This document shows, one piece after another, positions 1-40,151 of a DNA stretch of 40,151 bases; position 1 is the stretch's first letter, and each line of letters opens with the position of its first letter. A model generated the notes under the pieces. The model ran no database searches. It was not told the origin of the DNA and was given only the letters and a program-made list of their open reading frames with translations. The position numbers were made by a program, and so were the translations under genes. This stretch comes from a virus, in IMG/VR virus record IMGVR_UViG_3300044618_001287, positions 1 to 40,151 of that record; one strand, written 5' to 3'.

Positions 1-152
1 CACCAAAGAGCGTTTCCGCCGCACGCAGGACGGCCGCAGGGTGTCGACCGGGAAGATGCCGGTCGGCGGCTCGTACGGTCGGCCTCCAATCCGATCGGCA
101 TGGGAGCAGACACGCGAGCGTGTTGAATCGCTGATGGTCGAGGAAATGACCA
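1..152. repeat. Left copy of terminal redundancy (contig circularises)
   Basis: The first 152 bases recur at 40000-40151. Only two adjacent bases differ (25-26: GC here, AA in the right copy). Both copies lie in the same reading frame of the gp10-like gene, so the window is a circular or circularly permuted genome of about 39,999 bp opened inside that gene. The mismatch changes one residue (Gln here, Lys in the right copy), which suggests strain variation in the source population or an assembly-end error rather than true direct terminal repeats. Confidence 0.93.
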
Positions 153-1029: not shown

Positions 1030-1338
1030 GTGGCGACATACTCGCAAGGCTGCACGGTGTCGTTTGCCGGTTCTTCACTGACCGAGCTGACAAGCGTGCA
1101 GTTGGAGCTTGGCGGCGGCCTGCCTATTGGTCGCAGCGGCACCTATGCACCAAGCGGCGGCAGCGTGAGCGTCGAGGGACTCGCTCCGGGCTCTTTCAAT
1201 TGGGGCCAATACGGGTCGCTCGTTATTAGCGGTGGCGGCGTCAGCTTGACATACAACGCAGTATGTACGGGCAAGGGAGCCACCGCGGCTGCCAACGATG
1301 TGACGCGTTACACGTTCACGTTCGACCTCATTGGATGA
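1030..1338 (+). CDS. Tail tube-like protein, paralogue 2
   Basis: This 102-residue protein starts at GTG behind a G-rich stretch. It shares with the upstream gene the opening pattern MAT-x-x-QG-x-T-x-x-F-x-G and the closing pattern G-[ST]-LVISGG followed by ANDVTR and a last beta strand. It looks like a shortened tail-tube paralogue made by tandem duplication. Possible roles are a minor tube subunit, a tube decoration or an initiator/terminator ring. An unrelated beta protein is less likely given the conserved ends. Confidence 0.65.
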   Translation: MATYSQGCTVSFAGSSLTELTSVQLELGGGLPIGRSGTYAPSGGSVSVEGLAPGSFNWGQYGSLVISGGGVSLTYNAVCTGKGATAAANDVTRYTFTFDLIG

Positions 1339-4900: not shown

Positions 4901-5126
4901 CGAGATCGAAGCCAGCCGGCTCGACGCACTCTCGCAGGTGTCGCAGACACCGCTGCAGGCCACTGACGTGCGGACCAGCGAAGGGGCGAGCGAGTTTATT
5001 CGGCTCGCTACTGGCCGAGAGGATCCAGCGATCGCGGAATACCGCAAGCAGCTGTCAGAGCTTCGCAAGATTGCCAATGAGATCGGCAAGCTCGGCGGCG
5101 TGGTCGACATTGTGGGGGCAGCGTAA
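1995..5126 (+). CDS. Tape measure protein
   Basis: At 1043 residues this is the largest gene in the window. It sets tail length and is ejected with DNA. It is Ala/Gln/Glu-rich with long heptad-like helices at both ends (about residues 15-220 and 700-1040) and a hydrophobic, Gly/Val/Ile-rich centre (about 250-330 and 470-660), including several membrane-like stretches. That is the standard tape-measure plan. It sits directly downstream of the frameshifted chaperone pair. No peptidoglycan hydrolase motif was recognised inside it. Length suggests a tail on the order of 150 nm if the usual residue-to-length relation holds. Confidence 0.93.
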   Translation: MATVIGLGVQFSANANGMTKGLSQVDRQLQNLGKQAAAASSLFDSFTAASGAAAAAQQQVATDIAFLGSALKTGQISAQEYASELQAIVGSAQTAAAAFAEGARITDQVATAEERRTAELERLGQLLAAGAISEETYSRAAAEASGANEEAAKAETDRAKALARAAQITQANLSPQQKYDAAVQELSDHLAAGRISQETYNSAIAKATTDFDKASRAAAGFEDAAAAGGDGGTMKFNELSGVLSALPGPIGNVAGRLSGLASAGEGLGKVFGGGAGLSGGLANIGASVAGMVNPFTVGLAAVAAFGAGATAVASGLLDLEDRVETLGNTADKLGVSFEFIQTLEEAGNRSGVSIESVSSAFGKLQKTLAGADEESKAATAALAKLGISFTDLENLSPEEQIRLVGEQLQGIEDPAKRTAAAMQIFGKSGADLLPFFANLGPAADDIERLGGSLSAIDRGRIDDFGAGIDALGVASSRLGELLLLPFVGLGEGIAQGSAEFLGGINAIVGPIGDVLEPVLSGLGTAFEVVGVVIGGIGRVIGEIISPIGDLAQAFGAVGESFGTAFIDVVRYLVDGAVAATDFAVSFSPLGAVADNLGGLGETVSRVANIIGTALSQVGSYIGDSLASWAEFFGLQSAIEQIGGVISSVFGGVSSTFETIANAIGGTVGRLLTIAENFLGITAEVEEPVIPELDLSQPTLAASQFAKEIGTAATAAAEFGQAGFEAAVAYQTSLEQIAQLQADNTLTADEAKKAAEQEKAAFEAKIETLDQEAQAQARASEAAQKAADEKIAAAERAAAAAVEADRKLADAFISAQGLGGGDGATPADTLLAIVRQIEETEAAIVEARASGDKAAEDAAIRRLQVLDQAQAAAEETAQFGFSTQDAERAIASVRDTLDETFSFVNFELAPEAFTAAQEQLAQLEADLEAKVIDPETFEQAADAIRSGFEDALKTAERIRDLNEQYAQRAAEIEASRLDALSQVSQTPLQATDVRTSEGASEFIRLATGREDPAIAEYRKQLSELRKIANEIGKLGGVVDIVGAA

Positions 5127-5998
5127 TGGCAATTATTGCCGGTCGGGAAGTCATCCCACGCACGTTTACGCACCGGTTCGGCGAGTCGCCGACGGCCGAG
5201 ATCAAGTACCACCTGACCACCAGCGGCCCTGTTGGCGTGCAGCAGGCACTTGATTACGTCGGCATCTATCACGGATCACCTCATCCCGAGTACCCGTACT
5301 TATGGTGCACGGAAGGTGCCGTAAACGAACTCGACCGCTTCCACGTCGAAATAACCTACTCGTATTCCGTGCCGGCCGTTGGCACTGAGGACAGCGACCC
5401 AAACCCCCTGGCGCGTGCTGATATCTGGTCTTTCTCCACGGGAGGGTCAGCGGTCCCTGCGTTGGCGTATTTCCATGGCAGCGGGAACGGCGACCTGCGT
5501 GCCCTGGTCAACTCGGCCTACGACTTCTTCGAAGGTGCGATGACTGAGGAGAGCGAGCTGCGTTGCACGATCTCTGGCAACCGTGCGTCGTTTCCCGTTG
5601 GCGTGGCCGCCCAAGTGACCAACTGTGTGAACGCAGACGCCTACCTCGGAGCCCAGCCGTACCAATGGAAGTGCCAGGGAATCAGCGGCCAGCAGCAGGT
5701 CGAGGTGGTCAACGGGTTTGAGTTGAAGTATTGGTCAGTCTCCGTAGAGCTCGCGTTCAGGCAGAGCGGCTGGCGGCTGATGCTGCCTGACGTTGGCTAC
5801 AACTACCTCGAGGGAAGCCAGCAGAAGCGGGCGTACGTGATCGACCCGGAAAGCGGCGACAAGGTCGCGTCGTCGAACCCTGTGGCTCTGAACTCAAACG
5901 GCTCTCTTAAAAGCTCGGGCACCGCCCCGGACATCCTCTACCGCCGCGTCCACCGCGAGGTCGCCTTCGCTCCCCTGTTTGGCACGCCGCCGTTCTAA
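5126..5998 (+). CDS. Distal tail protein (inferred from position)
   Basis: This 290-residue beta-rich protein starts at an ATG overlapping the tape-measure stop (TAATG). Position right after the tape measure is where siphovirus distal tail or baseplate hub genes lie. No catalytic motif is visible. It contains several Trp/Tyr-rich strands and two Cys near residues 147 and 167. No later gene resembles the usual large Tal/hub protein, so this protein and the following baseplate-like one may form the whole tail tip. The role is inferred from order; the sequence itself was not recognised. Confidence 0.6.
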   Translation: MAIIAGREVIPRTFTHRFGESPTAEIKYHLTTSGPVGVQQALDYVGIYHGSPHPEYPYLWCTEGAVNELDRFHVEITYSYSVPAVGTEDSDPNPLARADIWSFSTGGSAVPALAYFHGSGNGDLRALVNSAYDFFEGAMTEESELRCTISGNRASFPVGVAAQVTNCVNADAYLGAQPYQWKCQGISGQQQVEVVNGFELKYWSVSVELAFRQSGWRLMLPDVGYNYLEGSQQKRAYVIDPESGDKVASSNPVALNSNGSLKSSGTAPDILYRRVHREVAFAPLFGTPPF

Positions 5999-6030: not shown

Positions 6031-6396
6031 ATGAGTGAGTTTCTTGCACTGCCGGGTCCGCTTGCCATCTCCATGACTGTTGGAGATGAGTTCGGGATGT
6101 TCGTCGATCTTGACATCGACACGACGAACTTCGCATGGACCGGCATTGTCTACGAAGTCACCACGACCGTTTCTTTTTCGAGCCCCAGTGGCGTGTCTTC
6201 GCAGGGGGCGACAGCTGCGACGTTCACTGTGACTAGCGTCAGCGCTGCGAATGGGCAAATCAACCTGTCGTTGACTGAGGCGCAGACAAGCTTGCTTGAT
6301 CCGACAAAGAAATACCGCTGGTACCTCAGAGGCGTAAGCCCATCGCTCGTCACACGCACATACCTTAGCGGAACTTTTACGGCGTACGCACCATGA
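6031..6396 (+). CDS. Baseplate/adhesin-anchor protein (cassette B, gene 1)
   Basis: This 121-residue beta-sandwich-like protein starts with an acidic strand pattern (LPGPLAISMTVGDEFGMFVDLDID) and ends in a Y-x-W-x-L-R-G strand. It resembles N-terminal domains of baseplate upper proteins (BppU/DUF2479-like) that anchor fibres. The gene at 36762 has the same pattern (L-P-G-[PQ]-L, then R-[GV]-D-E-[LF]-G, and a terminal YGWRLEWD), so the two are paralogues at the head of parallel adhesin cassettes. Its stop overlaps the ATG of the fibre gene. It may dock the fibre to the tail tip. Confidence 0.6.
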   Translation: MSEFLALPGPLAISMTVGDEFGMFVDLDIDTTNFAWTGIVYEVTTTVSFSSPSGVSSQGATAATFTVTSVSAANGQINLSLTEAQTSLLDPTKKYRWYLRGVSPSLVTRTYLSGTFTAYAP

Positions 6397-7961
6397 TTAA
6401 TGTCACAGTCTCGGGAACGGCCGTTGGCGTTTCGGTCAGTAGTGGCATTGGCCCTGCCGGATTCATCAACGCCCCTGGCACGTCGACCAACGCTTTCGGC
6501 ACGTTCCAGTTAACTGCTGGCAATGGTATTACCATCTCGACCAGCGTCGGGCAGTTCCAGGTTGCTTCATACAACACGTCACAGGTCGCTGGCCTGGCCC
6601 CGGTCCAAAGCGTCGCCGGGCGTGTTGGCTCCGTGCAGCTGCAGGCGTCCGACGTGACGGCTGGCACGTTCGCTATCGCACGGATTCCGACGATCTCGTA
6701 CACGGCCCTCGCCAATGTACCGACGAGCTTTGGCCCGTCAGCCCACACGCACTCGACCAGCGACGTTGTGTCGTTTACGTCTGCCGCTGCGGCAGCCGCC
6801 CCGGTGCAGAGCGTGGCAGGTCGCACCGGTGCTATCTCGCTGGCAGCCGCCGACGTGAGCGGGCTGGCTTCCGTTGCGACCAGTGGCTCGTACACGAGCC
6901 TGCAGAACGTGCCTGCCACGTTCGCTCCAGTGGCTCACACGCACGGCACAGCCGACATCACCGGCATCTCGAGCTCGTTTGCGGCAGCTAGCCACACCCA
7001 CGAAGCCTCGGCGATTGCCAGCGGCGTGCTTGAGCTCGCCCGCATCCCGACCATCGGCTACACGGCGCTGTCAGGCGTGCCGACGACGTTCGCACCGCAG
7101 GCCCACACGCACAGCACGGCCGACGTGGCTGGGCTCACGGCCTCGTTCTCGCAGGTCGGCCACACGCACGACTACGCGGCCAGCAGCCATGGTCACGCGG
7201 CCAGCGATGTGACCAGCGGCACGTTCGATGTCTCTCGCATCCCGGCCATCTCTTACACGGCGTTGCAGAACATCCCGGTTTCGTTTGTGCCGGCAACGCA
7301 CACGCACGACTACGCGGCGTCGATCCACACGCACTCCACCGCCGACATTGCCGGCTATCTGGCACTGCCTTCACAGGGCGGCAAGGCCGGCCCGCTGGTC
7401 ACGGATGGCACGGCAGCGACCTGGTCGACCCGGTACGGCGTGGTCGATCCGGTGCTAGTTCAGGGCGCTGGCATGACCCTAACGCGTGACACGGCCGCCG
7501 GGTCCATTACTGTCGCGTTTGCTGGCGGCACGTCAGGGATCGTTGTCGGATCTGCCACGCCGCAGCCTCTGGGTGTCGCAGCTGCTGGATCTTCAGGAGA
7601 TGCTGCCCGTATAGATCATGTTCACGCAATGCCAACGGCAGCAGACGTTGGGGCAGCTGCGGCGGCTCATACACACTCCGCTGGCGACGTGACGAGCGGG
7701 ACGCTCGACATCGCACGGATTCCGACGATTGGCTATACAGCACTTAGCGGGGTGCCGCTCACGTTTGCCCCCGTTTCTCACACGCACTCGACAACAGACA
7801 TCACTGGCTACACGCTCACTAGCGTGAACGGTTTGACTGGCACTGTCACAATTGCCGGCGGTGCTGGTGTCACGGTCAGCACGGCCAGCAGCTCGATCAC
7901 GATTGCGGCTGGTGGCGGCAGTGGCGGCGTATCTCTAGGTCTTGTCCTCGCACTGAGTTGA
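6393..7961 (+). CDS. Tail fibre with His-x-His repeats (cassette B, gene 2)
   Basis: This is a 522-residue fibre. Residues 1-40 form a beta head (VTVSGTAVGVSVSSG) shared with the collagen-like fibre at 37082. The shaft carries five or so copies of a unit reading [AS]RIPT-I-[SG]YTAL-x-N/G-[VI]P-x-[ST]F-x-P-x-x-HTH, and eleven His-x-His motifs in total (HTH, HGH, HVH). In the T4 gp37 needle, HxH triplets from three chains bind iron, so a trimeric metal-stabilised fibre is likely. The protein ends in a Gly/Ser/Thr strand region without a recognised chaperone domain. It is a receptor-contacting or shaft protein at the tail tip. Confidence 0.85.
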   Translation: MINVTVSGTAVGVSVSSGIGPAGFINAPGTSTNAFGTFQLTAGNGITISTSVGQFQVASYNTSQVAGLAPVQSVAGRVGSVQLQASDVTAGTFAIARIPTISYTALANVPTSFGPSAHTHSTSDVVSFTSAAAAAAPVQSVAGRTGAISLAAADVSGLASVATSGSYTSLQNVPATFAPVAHTHGTADITGISSSFAAASHTHEASAIASGVLELARIPTIGYTALSGVPTTFAPQAHTHSTADVAGLTASFSQVGHTHDYAASSHGHAASDVTSGTFDVSRIPAISYTALQNIPVSFVPATHTHDYAASIHTHSTADIAGYLALPSQGGKAGPLVTDGTAATWSTRYGVVDPVLVQGAGMTLTRDTAAGSITVAFAGGTSGIVVGSATPQPLGVAAAGSSGDAARIDHVHAMPTAADVGAAAAAHTHSAGDVTSGTLDIARIPTIGYTALSGVPLTFAPVSHTHSTTDITGYTLTSVNGLTGTVTIAGGAGVTVSTASSSITIAAGGGSGGVSLGLVLALS

Positions 7962-7965
7962 ACAC

Positions 7966-8340
7966 ATGGCAAATCCAAATCTCGGCTCCGCCACGAACGT
8001 CTACGCGAACAATGCGCAACTGTCGCTGACTGCCACCACGGCTGCGCAGCTGATCACCAACGCGGCATCGAGCGGCAAGGTGTTCCTGGTCGACTCGATC
8101 ATTGTCGCCAACGTCGACGCCACGAACGCCTGCGACGTGACGGTTACGCGGTTTGCGTCCGCGACCAACACTGGCACGGCGTTCCCGATTGCCTCGACGA
8201 TCACAGTGCCCGCGAAGGCATCGCTGATCGTCGTCGGCAAGGATAACCCAATCAACCTCACGGAGGCCGAGTCGGTCTACGTCACGGCGAGCGCGGCGAA
8301 TCGGTTGGTCGTGGATGCCAATTGGAAGGAATTGTCGTGA
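7966..8340 (+). CDS. Small beta-rich tail protein (cassette B, gene 3)
   Basis: This 124-residue protein is made almost wholly of predicted beta strands (VFLVDSIIVANVDATNACDVTVTRF...). It matches the plan of the protein at 37832 (a leading N-P-A/N-L segment, an IVxSxxVxN strand, then a final V-S/Y-V strand), so it is the third gene of a duplicated cassette. It lies between fibre and lectin genes with a 3' stop-start overlap (GTGA). It is probably a structural adaptor or a decoration of the tail tip. Function is inferred only from context. Confidence 0.6.
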   Translation: MANPNLGSATNVYANNAQLSLTATTAAQLITNAASSGKVFLVDSIIVANVDATNACDVTVTRFASATNTGTAFPIASTITVPAKASLIVVGKDNPINLTEAESVYVTASAANRLVVDANWKELS

Positions 8341-9119
8341 GCAGGCAGCGTGGCGGATACATCGGATTTAATCGCGTCCCCGACGCTGCTGCGTTCAACT
8401 CTGCGGCCGTCGGCATGTGGAAATTGCGTGAGGCTGAGGCGATGCGCCGTGCAGGAACATGGCCGACTGCCACGCCGGCCGACCTCAACTTCAGCAACGT
8501 GACGTTATTGATGCACATGGACGGCACGGGCAGCACATTCACGGATTCCAGCGGCACGCCAAAAACGATCACGGCAAACGGCAACGCAACGCAGTCAACA
8601 GCTCAAAGCAAGTTCGGCGGCGTGTCTGCTTTGTTTGACGGCAGCGGAGACTACCTGTCTGGCGCAACGTCGGATGCTACTCGTTTTCCTGGAGACTTTA
8701 CCGTGGAGTTCTGGGCTTTTGTGCTTGTTCACAAGAGCTTCAATGTTTGGTTTGATTGTCGTTCGGCTGTTCCATCTGCAGCAGGTTTTGCGATTGCGTC
8801 GAACTCTTCAGGTGAGATGACATTGTTTACCAACAATGGTTTTGCGATTACGGGTTCTTCCGCGTTTACTGCATCGCAGTGGACACATTTTGCGTTGGTG
8901 CGAAGTGGCTCAACTATCACTCTTTACCAAGGCGGGCAGTCAGTAGGGACAACGACAAACTCAACACACTTTAGCGACGGCACGTTGGCGGTGGGCATCT
9001 CTTTTGCTGACATAAATCACTCGGTCAATGGCTACATAGACGAACTCAGGATCACCAAGGGCGTCGCCCGCTACACGGCCAACTTCACGCCACCCACGGC
9101 AGCTTTCCCTGACGCATGA
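8337..9119 (+). CDS. LamG/concanavalin-like tail adhesin (cassette B, gene 4)
   Basis: This 260-residue protein starts at the GTG overlapping the previous stop. Residues 1-50 are an adaptor with basic residues. From about residue 55 it shows the LamG-like jellyroll pattern: LLMHMDG-x-G-S-x-F-D-SS, GGVSALFDGSGDYL, FTVEFW, WTHFALVRSGSTITLYQGG and GYIDELRITKGVARYT. LamG-type folds bind surface sugars, so this is a likely receptor-binding protein. It takes the position held by a glycine-rich adhesin in the other cassette. The coding sequence is visibly more AT-rich than neighbouring genes, as is common for exchanged receptor-binding modules. Confidence 0.82.
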   Translation: MSRQRGGYIGFNRVPDAAAFNSAAVGMWKLREAEAMRRAGTWPTATPADLNFSNVTLLMHMDGTGSTFTDSSGTPKTITANGNATQSTAQSKFGGVSALFDGSGDYLSGATSDATRFPGDFTVEFWAFVLVHKSFNVWFDCRSAVPSAAGFAIASNSSGEMTLFTNNGFAITGSSAFTASQWTHFALVRSGSTITLYQGGQSVGTTTNSTHFSDGTLAVGISFADINHSVNGYIDELRITKGVARYTANFTPPTAAFPDA

Positions 9120-9247: not shown

Positions 9248-9694
9248 ATGGCAAAGAAGCCTGACGGTGCAGCTGCTGGCACGCAGCGTGTGACGTTCAC
9301 CAAGCCGGCCGCAGAGCGGATCGGCAAGGTCGTCCGCCAGGTCGAGGCCGGGAACCGGGATCTCGGGCCGCTGGAGTGGGGGCCTCGAGGTGGTGCTGCG
9401 TCCGGCAAGGTGTTCCGCGTCTGCACGTTTACCGGGGCGTGGGCGATTGACACCAGCAAGACTGTCACGTTCCGTGGCGTGACGAGCACGCCGAATACGG
9501 CCAGCGTGATGAACCTCGTGTGCGGCCTGAGTCCGGCTGGGTCGTGTGATGTGTCGATCGCCAAGGACGGGACGGCGTGGTATCTCGTGCAGCCGAACCT
9601 GACCCAGCAACCCGGCTACTCGTCGACAGGCACTCAGGTTCTCTCTGTCGTGAACGGAACTCTTAGATGGGTCGGCACTACTGCGTGCTCGTGA
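9248..9694 (+). CDS. Tail-associated protein of planctomycete-phage type
   Basis: This 148-residue protein has a basic helical N-terminus (about 1-35, KPAAERIGKVVRQVEAGNRDL), a short linker with GPRGG, and a C-terminal beta domain that includes GKVFRVCTFTGAW and SIAKDGTAWYLVQ. I recall this arrangement from proteins encoded next to tail-fibre genes in planctomycete-linked viruses; that is memory, not a search. It forms a unit with the next gene (9699). It is probably a virion surface protein. Confidence 0.5.
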   Translation: MAKKPDGAAAGTQRVTFTKPAAERIGKVVRQVEAGNRDLGPLEWGPRGGAASGKVFRVCTFTGAWAIDTSKTVTFRGVTSTPNTASVMNLVCGLSPAGSCDVSIAKDGTAWYLVQPNLTQQPGYSSTGTQVLSVVNGTLRWVGTTACS

Positions 9695-9698
9695 TCAC

Positions 9699-10691
9699 AT
9701 GACACTCGCCACGAAAAACGGATCGCTGATCGTCACAGGCGGCAAGATCGCAGAGAACTGCGGGTGCTGCGATCCGTGTCCACTGCCGCCGCTCCCTGAT
9801 TTCATTGAAGTCGAAATTGCTTCTGGCCAATCTGAAACCGCTTCATTGGTGATGGGCCAAAATCCTGCCAGCGGACCAGTCGTTTACAAGTATGCCGCTA
9901 CTGCTGTGTGGACAATACCCGGTGGAACATTTGTCCTAACGCCAGGTTCAACGGCTGGCAGCTATGGGTACAGCAATGGCTCGATCGGTGTGTTTCTTGA
10001 AGCATTCATTGTGAAGGACTCGGCTACAACTAGACGTATTGAGCTAGGTTTTACATTTAGCCCGCTTCGCGTCAAAACACTGCTCGATACCTCTGTGCCG
10101 CCAACAACTGAGAGTATGCTTGCTGATTCGTGGCTGGACGATGGCTGCCTAGAAGCACGTCACCCGGACTTCTTTGCTGGCGGCATAACTTATCAGCCAT
10201 ACAAATGCACTTTTGGCAGTGGCTCTCAGAGCAGGTTTAGAGCGCCATTTCGCTTGCGTGACTCTTGCAATGCAGGCACTGTGACGCGGCAGCTGACGGC
10301 TAATTTTACCAATACAAGTTCGGTGCATCTTGCGTGCCTGTCTTCTGGCTGTATTTTTCCGGCCGTGATAGAGTCGGGCCAGCACGCTATAATTATCCCA
10401 CGCACGGCATCTAACCTAATGCAGGCAACAACAGACCTAAACTATCACAGGGTTTTCCCGAATTACCTTTTTATCTTCGACCGTTCAGGTAATGCGCCGT
10501 CAGCCACATACCAACCTACAGCGTCCGGGAAAGCCACTGCCACTATTCAATCCGTGTCGCTTGTATACGGGTCCGCTAGAGTTGCGATGTTTGCGGCGAA
10601 TGGCACGGAAGCCTGTTCGGCACGCGCGGGAAACAACTTCAACCATTTCCCTACGCTACCAAGTTCTCTTGTACCACTGACGTGCCCGTAA
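9699..10691 (+). CDS. Cys-containing putative tail surface protein
   Basis: This 330-residue protein opens with TLATKNGSLIVTGGKIAENC followed by a Cys cluster (C-G-C-C-D-P-C) and a Pro-rich hinge. The rest is beta-rich with scattered Cys and aromatic residues (DDGCLEARH, STSS..HLACLSSGC), suggesting disulphide-bonded or metal-bound surface domains. The coding sequence is visibly more AT-rich than the replication genes. It is followed without a gap by 10692. It is likely a virion accessory or adhesion protein. The family was not identified; the opening motif is one I associate with planctomycete-linked phage proteins. Confidence 0.5.
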   Translation: MTLATKNGSLIVTGGKIAENCGCCDPCPLPPLPDFIEVEIASGQSETASLVMGQNPASGPVVYKYAATAVWTIPGGTFVLTPGSTAGSYGYSNGSIGVFLEAFIVKDSATTRRIELGFTFSPLRVKTLLDTSVPPTTESMLADSWLDDGCLEARHPDFFAGGITYQPYKCTFGSGSQSRFRAPFRLRDSCNAGTVTRQLTANFTNTSSVHLACLSSGCIFPAVIESGQHAIIIPRTASNLMQATTDLNYHRVFPNYLFIFDRSGNAPSATYQPTASGKATATIQSVSLVYGSARVAMFAANGTEACSARAGNNFNHFPTLPSSLVPLTCP

Positions 10692-35225: not shown

Positions 35226-35963
35226 ATGGTCATCAAGGTAGGCGGCACCGAGGTCGAGATCCGCGCGGAAGCCATCCTGTCCGGCCCGCGGTTCGGCCCT
35301 CTAGCCAACCTGTTCGGCTGGGCTCAGGCCCTCATGCCGCTGGGCATCCGGCCCACGCTCGGCCAGGGTGCGTTCTGGAGCCAGGTACTAACGCGGATGA
35401 TGGAGCAATTCGTCGACCAGTGCGAATACATCATCACGCTGGATTTCGACACGTTTGTTTCCCGCCAGGACATCGAGCAGCTGTTCGCCATGGCGCTGGC
35501 GTTCCAGTGCGATGCCATAGCTCCGCTGCAGGTGAAGCGTGAGGACGGCCGGCCGATGCTCACGCTGCTCGGCACACTAGACGACCCGCCGGCCAGCGGC
35601 TCGACCACGCTGCCCACGTCGTGGTTTGCCGAGCCTGTGCAGCAAGTAGATAGCGCCCACTTCGGCTGCACGATCCTCTCGACGGCCGCCCTGAAGCGAA
35701 TGAAGAAGCCGTGGTTCTGGGAACAACCGGACCCGCAGGGAAGTTACGGCGAGGGCCGCGTGGACTCGGACATCGGGTTCTGGCGGACGTGGCGTGACTC
35801 AGGGAACAAGTGTTTCGTTACGCCGCGGGTGTCGATCGGCCACGGCGAGTACGTCGTGACGTGGCCTGGCAAGGATCTCGGCAAGCCGGTGTTCCAATAC
35901 ACGAGCGATTGGATGAAGGCGAACAAGGCCCCCGAAACTGCATGGAGCGTAGGACAATCGTGA
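35226..35963 (+). CDS. Glycosyltransferase-like protein behind the capsid gene
   Basis: The protein is 245 residues from ATG 35226 with GGAGG at 35216-35220. It has the GT-A marker YIITLDFDTFV (D73-F-D75) and a later acidic VDSDIGFWRTW (about residues 178-188), plus HGEYV near the end. The family resembles GT2-type enzymes. It lies between the capsid gene and the connector genes, so capsid or tail proteins are obvious acceptors. It is distinct from the two enzymes at 23498-25008. No signal peptide or membrane span. Confidence 0.72.
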   Translation: MVIKVGGTEVEIRAEAILSGPRFGPLANLFGWAQALMPLGIRPTLGQGAFWSQVLTRMMEQFVDQCEYIITLDFDTFVSRQDIEQLFAMALAFQCDAIAPLQVKREDGRPMLTLLGTLDDPPASGSTTLPTSWFAEPVQQVDSAHFGCTILSTAALKRMKKPWFWEQPDPQGSYGEGRVDSDIGFWRTWRDSGNKCFVTPRVSIGHGEYVVTWPGKDLGKPVFQYTSDWMKANKAPETAWSVGQS

Positions 35964-36157
35964 AACTGAAGTTTATCCGGTCGTGGCGTGCTTACTGCTC
36001 AGGTCAGACGGTTGACATCCCCGGCGGCCGGGCTGCCGAGTTGCTCGCCAGAAAAATCGCGGTTGAGGACAAACAGCAGCAGTTGATCGAAACGGCTGCG
36101 GTCGAAACGCCAGTGAAGACGGCCGACGCCACGCCACGCAGGAAACGCACGCGATGA
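35960..36157 (+). CDS. Small basic head-region protein, 65 aa
   Basis: GTG overlaps the previous stop. The product has a small beta domain (LKFIRSWRAYCSGQTVDIPG, then GRAAELLARKIA) followed by a charged tail ending in PRRKRTR. Short proteins with W-R-x-Y-x-x-GQ-x-V-x-x-P-x-G are common between capsid and connector genes; the role is unknown. It overlaps the next gene by four bases. Confidence 0.6.
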   Translation: MKLKFIRSWRAYCSGQTVDIPGGRAAELLARKIAVEDKQQQLIETAAVETPVKTADATPRRKRTR

Positions 36158-36765
36158 CGTACCGCAGCCTCACCAGAGCCACGCAGTCTGTCGTTGAGCC
36201 CGTGACCATCACGGACGCCAAGGCCCACCTGCGCGTCGATACGGACGACGACAACGCCTACATCATGGGCCTGGTTGCAGCTGCTCGAGGGTGGGTCGAG
36301 GAGTACCTGGACCGCTCGCTGGTTCACACGCAGTGGACGATGCGGCTAGATGGCTTCCCGCCGAACGGCCTCGACAACATCGAGCTACCACGGCCGCCGA
36401 TGGCAACCGCCTCGGCCGTCACCTCAGTGGCGATCACGTACACCACGGAGACCGGTGCCGTGGTTGTGTTCCCGTCGAACGAGTACCGGGTCGACCGGCA
36501 CTCCACGCCTGGCACCATCAGCCCGCTGTACGAGCAGGCGTGGCCAGTGCATCGCCGGGATGACAACTCGGTGATGGTTACCTGGTGGGGCGGGTACGGC
36601 GAAGACGGCCGCAGCGTTCCGACGCAGATCCGGCACGCGATTTTGATGCTGGTGGCCCATTGGTATGACCGACGTGAGTCTGTACTGACCGGCACCGCAT
36701 CCAAGGAAATCGAGTTTGGCGTGAAGTCGCTGCTCGACTCGTGCCGCTGGGGGACTTACCGATGA
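36154..36765 (+). CDS. Head-tail connector protein (HK97 gp6-like)
   Basis: This 203-residue protein has the connector signature EPVTITDAKAHLRVD near the start, DDDNAYIMGLVAAARGWVEEYLDR in the middle and a late RHAILMLVAHWYDRRE. These helices form the ring below the portal. The start overlaps the upstream stop. This gene is normally followed by head closure, but here a four-gene adhesin cassette lies between them. Confidence 0.9.
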   Translation: MTYRSLTRATQSVVEPVTITDAKAHLRVDTDDDNAYIMGLVAAARGWVEEYLDRSLVHTQWTMRLDGFPPNGLDNIELPRPPMATASAVTSVAITYTTETGAVVVFPSNEYRVDRHSTPGTISPLYEQAWPVHRRDDNSVMVTWWGGYGEDGRSVPTQIRHAILMLVAHWYDRRESVLTGTASKEIEFGVKSLLDSCRWGTYR

Positions 36766-37085
36766 GCACCTACACCCAACTTCCCGGCCAGCTGGGGCTG
36801 TCGCTTCGCCGCGGTGACGAGCTCGGCACGACGATCGACTTCTCCCCCACGACGATGACCGGCTACACGGTCTCGGCGGTGATCACGTCGCTGGTGACCG
36901 GCAACACGGTGGCGGCGTTCACGACCACGCTGACCAATGCCGCGGCCGGCGTCGTGAACATTGCACTTACGGAGCAGCAGACGGCCGCTCTACCGGTTGG
37001 AACGTACGGCTGGCGTCTTGAGTGGGACGCTCCGGGTAGTGTGCGGAGGACCGCACTGCAGGGTCTGGTGGAGGTCGTCGGGTGA
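36762..37085 (+). CDS. Baseplate/adhesin-anchor protein (cassette A, gene 1)
   Basis: This 107-residue beta-rich protein starts [20 protein letters not shown] and ends [12 protein letters not shown][13 protein letters not shown]. It matches the gene at 6031 in length, order and motif positions (L-P-G, DE[LF]G, and the final W-x-L-[RE]). It is the first gene of cassette A. The start overlaps the connector stop (ATGA). It likely holds the fibre on the virion. Confidence 0.62.
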
Positions 37086-37828
37086 CAACGGCAAGCGTCA
37101 CTAGCAACCCGATCACGGCCACCGTTTCAGGAATGGCGGTCTCGGCGGCTGTCACGAGCTCGAGCACGTCCGTGAGCACGTCGGGCGGCGTCGGGCCGCA
37201 GGGGCCTCAGGGAGCGTCCGGCGTTGAGGGAGATGCTGGCAGCGTTGGCCCACAGGGTCCTGCTGGTGCTGCTGGACCAGCAGGCCCGCAAGGTGCATCC
37301 GGCCCAAAAGGCGACCAGGGCGACCAGGGCGCTACAGGCCCCGCTGGCGCAACCGGGCCGCAAGGCCCAAAGGGAGACACCGGGGACGCAGGGCCGCAGG
37401 GTGTTGCTGGCGCCACAGGGCCAGCAGGTCCTACTGGCTTGACTGGACCGGCAGGCCCTGCTGGTGCAACAGGGCCGCAAGGTGACATAGGGCCAGCAGG
37501 ACCAACAGGGCCGCAGGGCGCTGCAGGAACAACTTCGTGGAGCGGCATAACAGATAAGCCTTCCACATTCGCTCCGAGTTCGCACACCCACCCGCTGTCC
37601 GAGCTGACGCAGTCCGGCGCGACGACCGGGCAGGTCGCCACATGGAATGGTTCGGCATGGGCGCCAGCTGCCGCCGCTGGTGGCGTGTCGGACGGCAGCA
37701 AGGGCGACATCACGGTGAGCGGCAGCGGCTCAGCGTGGACGATTTCTGCCGGTGCCGTCACTGAGGCCGATCTCGCCGACGCTGTCCGCAACCAGATTTT
37801 CCATCCGTTTTTGCTCATGGGAGGCTGA
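37082..37828 (+). CDS. Collagen-like tail fibre (cassette A, gene 2)
   Basis: This 248-residue protein starts at GTG overlapping the upstream stop. Residues 1-37 form a beta head like that of the fibre at 6393 ([17 protein letters not shown]). An uninterrupted run of 38 Gly-x-y triplets follows (about residues 38-151) and should form a trimeric collagen helix. The C-terminal 95 residues have one SHTHPLS motif and strands that end with [12 protein letters not shown]. It is a shaft linking an anchor to a glycine-rich tip. Confidence 0.88.
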
Positions 37829-37831
37829 CTT

Positions 37832-38161
37832 ATGCCGCAGACGCACAAGGTTCTCGGGCAAAGCAATCCAGCCGCCACCACGCTCACCACGCTCTACACG
37901 GTGCCGTCATCCACGCAGGCGATTGTGTCGTCGCTGACGGTCTGCAATCAGTCTGCGTCCGCAGCGTCCTATCGCCTTGCCGTGCGGCCTGTCGGTGCGG
38001 CGGCAGCGGCACAGCATTACCTGGTGTGGGATTCCGCCATTGGCGGAAATGATTCGATAACGCTGACACTGGGTATCACGCTGGCAGCTACCGATGTGGT
38101 CAGCGTTTACGCGTCATCTGGCACGGTATCTTTTTCCGCATTTGGCGTTGAAATCGCATGA
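37832..38161 (+). CDS. Small beta-rich tail protein (cassette A, gene 3)
   Basis: This 109-residue protein is all-beta (TTLYTVPSSTQAIVSSLTVC, SASYRLAVRPVG, ITLAATDVVSVYASSGTVSF). It matches the plan of the gene at 7966. Similar small proteins are common next to phage tail fibres. Its stop overlaps the next ATG. Confidence 0.6.
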   Translation: MPQTHKVLGQSNPAATTLTTLYTVPSSTQAIVSSLTVCNQSASAASYRLAVRPVGAAAAAQHYLVWDSAIGGNDSITLTLGITLAATDVVSVYASSGTVSFSAFGVEIA

Positions 38162-39003
38162 CCACTCGCCTAGCCAGCGCCTCAAACCTTAGACGGTCAT
38201 CGCTTGCAATGCAGTCGCCAGCGCTGGTGGCTGTGCGTTATTTGATCGTTGGCGGTGGAGGATCTGGCGGTGCCGGCTCTCGCGGCGCTGGAGGTGGTGC
38301 TGGTGGCGTTGTTGCCGGTACGGCCTATGTAGTGCCTGGCGTCAGCTACGCGATCGTCGTCGGTGCGGGCGGCGCTGTTGGTGTCTACACGAACACAGTC
38401 AATTCCGTCTCGGTAGGCAGCCAAGGGACAGCGTCAATCGCGCTCCTGCTGACTGCTGTTGGAGGAGGCGGCGGCGGCGGCGGTGACGCTACATCGTCAG
38501 GGAGGCCCGGTGGCTCCGGTGGCGGTGCGTGGTGGCTCGGCAGCGCAGGTGCAGGCACGCAGCTGCAAGGGAACACAGGTGGTACTGGCGTGACCACCGG
38601 ATCGTTCGGGACTGGCGGCGGGGGAGGCGCGTCTGCCGCTGGAGGTAACGGCACATCGTCGGCTGGCGGTGCAGGCGGCGGTGGAGTTGCCAACGACATC
38701 ACTGGCTTGTCTGTGACATACGGTGGCGGCGGATCTGGCGCTCTTTTCAACTCAGCGACATCCGGTGCGGCTGGCGCTGGTGGCGGCGGCAAGGGAAATA
38801 ACACGACGCCCAGCGGTCAGTCTGGCAGTAGCGGCACCGCAGGCACTGGTGGAGGCGGCGGCTCTGGCGGCTCGGGCGGAAGTGGCGTGGTCATCCTTCG
38901 CAGTCTGTTTCCGGCGTCCGCGACAACTGGGTCGCCAACTGCGTCTCGCGTTGGCGTGGAATACCTCTACACGTTCTCGGGTGCTGGGAGCATCACCTAT
39001 TAA
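38158..39003 (+). CDS. Glycine-rich tail-tip adhesin (cassette A, gene 4)
   Basis: This 281-residue protein begins with a strand (VRYLIVGGGGSGGAGSRGAG) and is made of polyglycine-rich segments throughout (GGGGGGGDATSSGRPGGSGG; GGGGGASAAGGNG; GGGGSGGSGGSGVVILRSLF). It ends with FSGAGSITY. Such proteins fold as polyglycine helices and present variable receptor-binding loops in tail adhesins (S16 gp38 type). It fills the slot that the LamG adhesin fills in cassette B. Confidence 0.82.
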   Translation: MTTRLASASNLRRSSLAMQSPALVAVRYLIVGGGGSGGAGSRGAGGGAGGVVAGTAYVVPGVSYAIVVGAGGAVGVYTNTVNSVSVGSQGTASIALLLTAVGGGGGGGGDATSSGRPGGSGGGAWWLGSAGAGTQLQGNTGGTGVTTGSFGTGGGGGASAAGGNGTSSAGGAGGGGVANDITGLSVTYGGGGSGALFNSATSGAAGAGGGGKGNNTTPSGQSGSSGTAGTGGGGGSGGSGGSGVVILRSLFPASATTGSPTASRVGVEYLYTFSGAGSITY

Positions 39004-39305
39004 TGGCACACTTTGCAGAACTGACTCCTGGCGGCGTTGTGGTCGCCGTGCTCGTCATCGCAAATAACGAAATGCTCGTAGACGGCGCTGAGCAAGAGAT
39101 CCGTGGCGTCGACCTTCTAGAATCGCTTTTCGGCCATCGAAGATGGAAGCAAACGTCGTACAACGGCCGCATCCGAAAACGCTACGCTGGCATCGGCCAT
39201 CACTACGACGAGCGGCTCGACGCCTTCGTGCCGCCATGCCCCGGCGAAGGATGGACGCTCGACGAGGCGACGGTGACGTGGGTGGAGCCGGCCGCGTCTG
39301 AGTGA
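39003..39305 (+). CDS. Tail-fibre-associated protein
   Basis: This 100-residue protein starts at TAATG. It has the pattern MAHFAELTPGGVVVAVLVI, then W-K-Q-T-S-Y-N, RKRYAGIGHHYDERLDAFVP and WTLDEATVTWVEP. I recall this pattern in many aquatic-phage tail proteins (HFA...V...W-x-QTSYN...R-x-x-YAG-G-x-x-YD...FIPP...W). It closes cassette A. It may be a virion decoration. Confidence 0.7.
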   Translation: MAHFAELTPGGVVVAVLVIANNEMLVDGAEQEIRGVDLLESLFGHRRWKQTSYNGRIRKRYAGIGHHYDERLDAFVPPCPGEGWTLDEATVTWVEPAASE

Positions 39306-39348: not shown

Positions 39349-39672
39349 ATGATCCGACCAGGCGACCTACGAGAACGCGTAACCGTGCAGATCGCCAGCG
39401 GCACCACAAACGCCCTTGGCGAGACCGTGCTGGCGTGGTCCGACTCGTCGGCCGTGTGGGCCAGCGTCGAGGGCGTATCCGCCCGCGAGGCCCTGGCGGC
39501 TGGCCAGCAGGAGACGACCGTCACGCACCGGCTGCGGCTGCGGTACCTGCCTGGCCTCACTAGCCAGATGCGGTTCGCGTGGCGTGGCCGCACGCTGGAG
39601 ATCGCCAGCCTGCTCGAGCACGGGCACCGCACCGAACACGAAGCCATTTGCATGGAGCGACGCAATGGCTGA
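39349..39672 (+). CDS. Head closure / head-tail adaptor protein
   Basis: This 107-residue protein opens with MIRPGDLRERVTVQIAS, the signature of head-tail joining proteins (Phage_H_T_join), and has WASVEGVSAREALAAGQQ and HRLRLRY, followed by RFAWRGRTLEIASLLEHG. It caps the connector before tail docking. It overlaps the next gene by eight bases. The cassette A genes upstream interrupt the usual connector order. Confidence 0.88.
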   Translation: MIRPGDLRERVTVQIASGTTNALGETVLAWSDSSAVWASVEGVSAREALAAGQQETTVTHRLRLRYLPGLTSQMRFAWRGRTLEIASLLEHGHRTEHEAICMERRNG

Positions 39673-40151
39673 GCAGGTCGGCATCAGGATCACGACAAGC
39701 ATCCCTGGGCTGGAAAGCATCCGCAATGCCTTTTTGGCCCTGCCGAAGAACCTCGCCGCCAAGCACATGGCTGCCGGGCTACGGCGTGCGGCTGAGAAGG
39801 GCGGCACGCTGCAGGCCCTGAAGTCAGCCACGCCGAGAGGCCCTACTGGGAACCTCCGGCGGTCGATCGCCGTGAAGAGCAAAAGGTACCCGCGAACCGG
39901 TGTGGGCATTGCCATTCTCGGGTTCAAGTCTGGCCGGAAGATGAACGAGCCATACGACAACACAAAGCTGGGCTACCACCAGGGGCTTGTCGAGTTCGGC
40001 ACCAAAGAGCGTTTCCGCCGCACAAAGGACGGCCGCAGGGTGTCGACCGGGAAGATGCCGGTCGGCGGCTCGTACGGTCGGCCTCCAATCCGATCGGCAT
40101 GGGAGCAGACACGCGAGCGTGTTGAATCGCTGATGGTCGAGGAAATGACCA
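39665..40151 (+). CDS. HK97 gp10-like tail completion protein (5' part)
   Basis: The first 162 codons of the gp10-like gene run into the right end and continue at position 2 of the window. The N-terminus has ITTSIPGLESIRNAFLALPK, AAKHMAAGLRRAAEKGG-x-L and a conserved-looking YHQGLVEFGTKERF near residue 108, typical of HK97 gp10. The combined protein is 183 residues. The ATG at 39665 overlaps the end of the head closure gene. Confidence 0.88.
   Translation, partial: MAEQVGIRITTSIPGLESIRNAFLALPKNLAAKHMAAGLRRAAEKGGTLQALKSATPRGPTGNLRRSIAVKSKRYPRTGVGIAILGFKSGRKMNEPYDNTKLGYHQGLVEFGTKERFRRTKDGRRVSTGKMPVGGSYGRPPIRSAWEQTRERVESLMVEEMT
40000..40151. repeat. Right copy of terminal redundancy
   Basis: This repeats positions 1-152 except for two adjacent bases (40024-40025, AA here and GC in the left copy). 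It shows that the genome was closed or circularly permuted in the source. Confidence 0.93.

Follow-up and report, generated by a model that had tools for sequence, protein, structure and literature searches.

Two candidate LtfC-type sockets, each with its own modular fiber, in a small environmental phage genome

Introduction

The proteins p132 of phage T5 and LtfC of phage DT57C form a dodecameric collar to which the side fibers are grafted (PMC10038345, PMC10713586). In DT57C, the N-terminal strands of the fiber extend the beta-sheets of the collar (PMC10713586), and the collar is missing from a T5 mutant whose fiber protein is truncated (PMC10038345). The T5 collar is borne by a ring of p140, which is paralogous to the tail tube protein pb6, and the authors of that work regarded p140/p132 as a landmark that is confined to large T5-like phages (PMC10038345). 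Here we analyze an IMG/VR contig (IMGVR_UViG_3300044618_001287; 40,151 bases, 63% G+C; the whole of this stretch is referred to as the window) that carries two cassettes of fiber genes, cassette A (36762-39305) and cassette B (6031-9119). Each cassette opens with the gene for a small socket protein (A1 or B1), best read as a p132/LtfC-type collar protein, which is followed by genes for a fiber (A2 or B2), a small beta adaptor (A3 or B3), and a tip (A4 or B4).

In phages of the T2/S16 type, the fiber gp37 is accompanied by a separate tip adhesin, gp38. Pam3 gp24 has a glycine-rich domain (PMC9608196), DT57C and DT571 carry branched fibers of LtfA and LtfB with two receptor-recognition domains and a broader receptor range (PMC4728585), and the N-terminal domain of BppU from TP901-1 is an immunoglobulin (Ig)-like anchoring domain that has been linked to p132 by DALI (PMC10038345). 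As in T5 and DT57C (with pb1 and LtfA), the genome described here has a gene for a small Ig-fold protein beside a fiber gene; unlike them, it has two sockets, different modular fibers, and a far smaller size, and its sockets do not reach the Pfam cut-off for LtfC. It resembles DT57C/DT571 in that one siphophage would possess two receptor-recognition domains (here predicted from genes), but it has two sockets with one fiber each rather than one socket with a branched fiber. A glycine-rich adhesin at the fiber end, whether separate or terminal, is shared with gp37-gp38 and Pam3 gp24, whereas the small adaptor between fiber and tip, and the existence of several adaptor families each matched to a fiber-end peptide, set the present system apart, as does the encoding of the socket by a separate gene when compared with BppU, which is one large protein. 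T5 collars, collagen-like fibers, LamG tips, and glycine-rich tips are already known; the new elements are the presence of two socket families in a single small phage, their wide spread beyond T5-like phages, the exchange of tips between loci, and the matched end-peptides, and no description of these four was found in a partial coverage of the literature.

Sockets and the collar fold

The sockets B1 (6031-6396; 121 amino acids (aa)) and A1 (36762-37085; 107 aa) are homologous (BLASTP 36%, E 5e-17; profile-profile E 1.6e-17). An AlphaFold model of B1 (predicted local distance difference test (pLDDT) score 83, alignment of 30 sequences) was compared with 350,542 PDB chains using Foldseek, and the top four matches were all DT57C LtfC or T5 p132 chains (8hqz_Q, 7qg9_J, 7qg9_L, and 8hqz_T), with E values of 2.9e-7 to 1.7e-6 and template modeling (TM) scores of 0.62-0.69. 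The model is an Ig-like beta-sandwich, as are the T5 p132 and LtfC collar proteins (~100-140 aa). The A1 profile reaches DT57C LtfC and T5 p132 by sequence (E 0.03-0.06), A1 matches phrog_1084 (E 2.7e-12) and, below the cut-off, the Pfam family LtfC (E 6.3e-4), and the PHROG families named "L-shaped tail fiber assembly" give weak matches to the sockets. Another trait of p132 and LtfC, adjacency to the gene of the anchored fiber, is also present, as the socket and fiber genes share 4 bp in cassette A, in cassette B, and in every readable relative. The best reading of the model and of the analogy is that A1 and B1 are T5 p132/LtfC-type collar proteins; the dodecameric ring and strand donation have been described for T5 and DT57C only. 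A socket profile found nothing in the phages phiPsal1 or ct2KA10, both of which carry A3 relatives, so adaptors also exist without this socket.

Organization of the two cassettes

An earlier note on this DNA, made from the letters alone, had described cassette B as one copy of a duplicated four-gene adhesin cassette with swapped tips, and the coordinates and gene order that it gave for B (6031-9119) and A (36762-39003) are correct. Following the sockets, cassette B contains B2 (6393-7961; 522 aa), B3 (7966-8340; 124 aa), and B4 (8337-9119; 260 aa, GTG start), and cassette A contains A2 (37082-37828; 248 aa), A3 (37832-38161; 109 aa), and A4 (38158-39003; 281 aa), all on the plus strand. The four gene positions correspond, although the cassette has no fixed composition: a fifth gene, A5 (39003-39305, plus strand), belongs to cassette A, and among relatives the A socket is followed by one to eight genes and the B socket by two to seven. 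The sockets are thus conserved, while the genes behind them differ greatly in number and family.

The fibers differ in their shafts, as the earlier note had stated. B2, which matches tail-protein PHROG families, has a shaft of HxH repeats with nine HxH sites, while A2, a tail-position protein, contains a long unbroken collagen-like run of 39 GXY triplets (Pfam Collagen, E 2e-16), and yet also a single HTH repeat of the B2 kind. The heads are alike over ~35 residues (hhalign probability 91%, p 1.2e-6), with a common VSGxxVxxxV...GxGPxG pattern and cross-scores of hidden Markov models (HMMs) above those of all shuffles, and they are probably related, with the caveat of their simple composition. 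The B2 head (MINVTVSGTAVGVSVSSGIGPAGF; 6393-6467, plus strand) is conserved in relatives and, by analogy with LtfA and LtfC of DT57C (PMC10713586), may donate a strand to the socket.

The AlphaFold model of B3 (pLDDT 85) is a single all-beta domain whose best structural matches are single-domain virion proteins of environmental phages (TM ~0.9). A3, also a small beta protein, matches phrog_1276 (E 4e-9), and its homologue in the Pontimonas phage phiPsal1 is annotated as a virion structural protein. Relatives in IMG/VR number at least 580 for B3 and at least 534 for A3. The two adaptors had been proposed as paralogues; they give no BLASTP match and no match between shallow profiles, and deep profiles give a borderline co-linear match (p 0.006, probability 6%) with HMM scores above every shuffle, so that paralogy is not established and A3 and B3 are possibly distant relatives at most.

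The gene 4 pair has no similarity, in agreement with the suggestion that the adhesins differ. B4 combines a putative N-terminal docking segment with a LamG domain at residues 101-241 (Laminin_G_3, E 3.4e-15; PF13385, 56.9 bits against a cut-off of 27.6), and A4 is glycine-rich (Pfam Gly_rich_2, E 6e-20). The fifth gene, A5 (phrog_7759, E 1.6e-28), also occurs at the B locus of one relative and possibly encodes an assembly factor. Among relatives, cassette A closes with either A5 or a gene of another family, c5, and there is a hybrid in L041/L091 that has a c5-like start and an A5-like CPGEGWTLDEAT...WVEPA end, and A5 relatives are also found in cyanophages and pelagiphages.

Exchange and origin of the cassette genes

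Loci of related phages were fetched for A1 (58 loci) and B1 (45 loci), some of which share a contig. A1 is preceded by the head-tail adaptor gene Ad1 (36154-36765 in the window, plus strand; phrog_442, E 7e-26) in 68 of 71 loci, with the head closure gene Hc1 (39349-39672, plus strand; phrog_25, E 2e-18) downstream, and B1 is preceded in 57/57 loci by a gene called Dit-like by position only (5126-5998, plus strand), which has no Pfam or PHROG match. B1 is present in all 12 of the A-fetched loci that extend beyond the Dit-like gene. Twenty B-fetched loci hold both Ad1 and Hc1; A1 is present in 13 and absent in seven separate contigs (L069, L070, L072, L092, L096, L098, and L102), each with one socket in the record, the longest of these records being 34 kb and several being fragments. 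Because Ad1 and Hc1 abut (0-18 bp) in these seven relatives, cassette A occupies one defined site between the two genes.

Parts have moved between the loci. Depending on the phage, members of the B3, LamG-tip, and A5 families are found at the B locus or at the A locus, so tips are indeed swapped, which supports the interchangeable tips of the earlier note; the A-locus tip of L055 is 45% identical to B4 of the window over the whole protein. L060 is 97.5% identical to the window from cassette A through the B socket and into B2; across the shaft and tip the similarity disappears, and it resumes at 9116 and 10831. In L113, a socket, a fiber ending in GLVLALS, B3, and a B4-type N-terminus are followed by an fn3 tip in place of the window's LamG, and in L196 and L213 a B-type cassette is followed in tandem by an A-type cassette consisting of a socket, a fiber ending in HPFLLMGG, A3, a glycine-rich tip, and A5, the same A order as in the window. 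Two genes downstream of B4 also bear on the B locus. B5 (9248-9694), a protein of unknown function, is retained there in 29 loci whichever tips come before it. B6 (9699-10691) has a conserved N-terminus (MTLATKNGSLIVxxGxxAENCGCC) and a remainder that is completely different among relatives, and is possibly a third exchangeable part.

In a tree of sockets that includes further phages, the A-type and B-type sockets form separate clades with several lineages each (A-type support 95/85). The socket clades are old, and by these comparisons the two cassettes are not a recent duplication; the fiber, adaptor, and tip genes, which are present also in unrelated phages, have been picked up piecemeal.

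Matching of fiber ends, adaptors, and tips

The A2 fiber ends in the peptide HPFLLMGG (37802-37825, plus strand), a putative docking peptide for A3. Across phages, an HPFLLMGG-like end was found just upstream of an A3-family gene in 38/40 distinct cases, as compared with 13/1,059 other reading frames. At the A locus of relatives, this type of end occurs if and only if an A3-family gene comes next (4/4 versus 0/19 distinct combinations, p 1e-4). The B2 fiber ends in SLGLVLALS (7932-7958, plus strand), the corresponding candidate docking peptide for B3, and B3-family genes, including those of unrelated phages, come after similar hydrophobic ends of the GLVLALS or IAMAMIFGF kind. Held-out weight matrices for the fiber ends gave an area under the curve (AUC) of 0.95 on the A3 side and 0.91 on the B3 side. 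On the other side of the adaptor, each adaptor family goes with tip N-termini of its own kind (AUC 0.92-0.96 with held-out HMMs) while the remainders of the tips are very different; the first 45-60 residues of B4, for example, recur in B3-linked tips from unrelated phages that otherwise differ from B4. A first pattern written for the B3-side end-peptides caught only 28/59 and was superseded by the position-weight test, and a strict pattern for the N-termini of B3-linked tips caught 6/73 and was superseded by the held-out HMM. At the A locus of L014, L024, L040, L057, and L009, fiber ends such as YARFS, LYLWSNFR, and DGGNF also pair with particular families of the next gene, which suggests that further pairs of end-peptide and partner exist. 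No relevant report of such an end-peptide rule was found in the literature, with partial coverage.

Proposed assembly and alternative explanations

We propose, with a probability of roughly 70%, that the cassettes encode two separate host-adhesion arms, built on two LtfC-type rings with one modular fiber each, and the suggestion in the earlier note of two parallel fiber systems, each with its own socket, is supported; that note added that the two might serve different host states or species. A1 or B1, as a small Ig-fold protein of the p132/LtfC type, would form a collar ring, to which the initial residues of the trimeric fiber (A2 or B2) would supply beta-strands as in DT57C. The shaft would consist of collagen in A and of HxH repeats in B, the hydrophobic peptide at the fiber end (HPFLLMGG or SLGLVLALS) would dock the all-beta adaptor (A3 or B3), and the adaptor would receive the N-terminal segment of the tip (glycine-rich A4 or LamG B4), which would bind the cell surface. 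With the joints conserved, shafts and tips could be replaced singly. We consider it rather unlikely that, beyond this, the two rings sit at different places, at the neck for cassette A and at the tail tip for cassette B, with both arms assembled from one shared stock of parts that short matching end-peptides would join; no relevant report of fibers at both neck and tip was found in the part of the literature that was covered.

Several observations weigh against the proposal of two collar-borne arms. The Pfam cut-off for LtfC (PF23926, 27 bits) is not reached by A1 (20.7 bits), B1 has no match, and only weak matches were obtained for 9/30 sockets (best E 1.7e-4), so that membership in the LtfC family is argued from the fold together with weak profiles; general Ig folds also score with the B1 model in Foldseek, ~300-fold worse. 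The end-peptide motif was written after the data had been seen, for which the held-out test corrects partly. In HPFLLMGG, the codons for MGG coincide with the ribosome-binding site of A3, GGA being invariant, and part of the conservation of this peptide therefore lies at the DNA level; since the HPFLL codons vary synonymously and MGG/MGA endings persist where the gap is 9-34 bases, selection at the protein level is likely, though it is not the sole force. The fibers of L098 and L099 end in GLVLALT, yet no B3 gene is present.

One alternative is the simple duplication pictured in the earlier note, in which one cassette was copied in this lineage and the tips diverged afterwards. The equal gene order and the homologous sockets and heads would fit, but the separation of A-type and B-type sockets into clades that include other lineages, the unrelated gene 4 pair, the existence of seven relatives with cassette B only, and the close homologues of B3 (81-87%) and B4 in unrelated phages make such a history quite improbable. 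Cassette A may instead encode a neck or head-tail whisker, with its ring at the head-tail junction rather than a tail-tip fiber. This explanation draws on the position of A1 between Ad1 and Hc1, amid connector genes, and on the presence of a neck-region protein of Bas63 (9mt4) among the Foldseek matches of B1; that match scores no better than immunoglobulins, however, gene position need not give virion position, and A-type sockets are located elsewhere in L063, L196, and L213, and we regard a neck whisker as somewhat unlikely.

The remaining alternatives concern the adaptors and the use of the two sets. A3 and B3 could be Tfa-like chaperones that bind the fiber end, assist its folding, and stay out of the virion, with the tips joining the fiber directly, given that each is a small gene downstream of a fiber gene with specificity for the fiber end and that gp25 of Pam3 acts in this way and is absent from virions (PMC9608196). 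Tfa-type chaperones have a variable beta domain and a conserved C-terminal helical trimerization domain, whereas the B3 model is one all-beta domain; in addition, its structural matches include named virion structural proteins, the phiPsal1 homologue of A3 is likewise annotated, and each adaptor family has its own type of tip N-terminus, all of which render a chaperone role unlikely. Finally, each virion might carry one set, the cassettes being alternatives or one of them a decaying relic. Single-socket relatives without cassette A do exist, but both socket frames are intact and are retained in every checkable two-socket relative, and the window has no match to the reverse transcriptase family PF00078 that could point to switching of the sets or to variation by a diversity-generating retroelement; the use of one set per virion is therefore judged improbable, and the preferred reading is that both arms would be present on one virion.

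Genome context

The first 152 bases of the window (1-152) recur at 40000-40151 with about two mismatches, and this terminal overlap makes it almost certain that the contig represents an essentially complete, circularly permuted genome of ~40.0 kb; IMG/VR classes it as linear despite the overlapping ends. On the circle, cassettes A and B are ~7 kb apart. The head side runs from terminase, portal, protease, and major capsid protein to Ad1 (36154), cassette A, Hc1 (39349), and Neck1, and the tail side from the tail terminator (217) through two paralogous genes in the tail-tube position, chaperone genes, the tape measure (1995), and the Dit-like gene (5126) to cassette B. The tail-tube-position paralogues (643-1011 and 1030-1338, plus strand; hhalign probability 97.8%, p 7e-13) recall the tail tube protein and p140 of T5. 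Between 1331 and 1995, ahead of the tape measure gene, the frames overlap at the usual site of a frameshifted tail chaperone pair. A conserved gene between the major capsid protein and Ad1 (35226-35963) has a glycosyltransferase-like look (CEYIITLDFDTF...) and no Pfam match, and phiPsal1 has annotated glycosyltransferases in the equivalent position. A search for a host found no cellular genome that carries relatives of A1 or TerL, and A1, B1, and the Dit-like gene have no protein match among 50,697 annotated phage records.

Significance

The T5-collar fold extends to small environmental phages and occurs twice per genome, and among the relatives the genomes with one socket, with two, and with tandem cassettes form a natural series. 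The end-peptide rule offers a sequence-level handle on the matching of fiber, adaptor, and tip, which aids the annotation of many unnamed tail genes in metagenomic phages. If the two rings do draw on a common pool of parts, the shaft, adaptor, and tip that fit one another would be predictable from sequence across unrelated phages. The rule also makes it testable how phages trade host-recognition parts while the virion stays intact.

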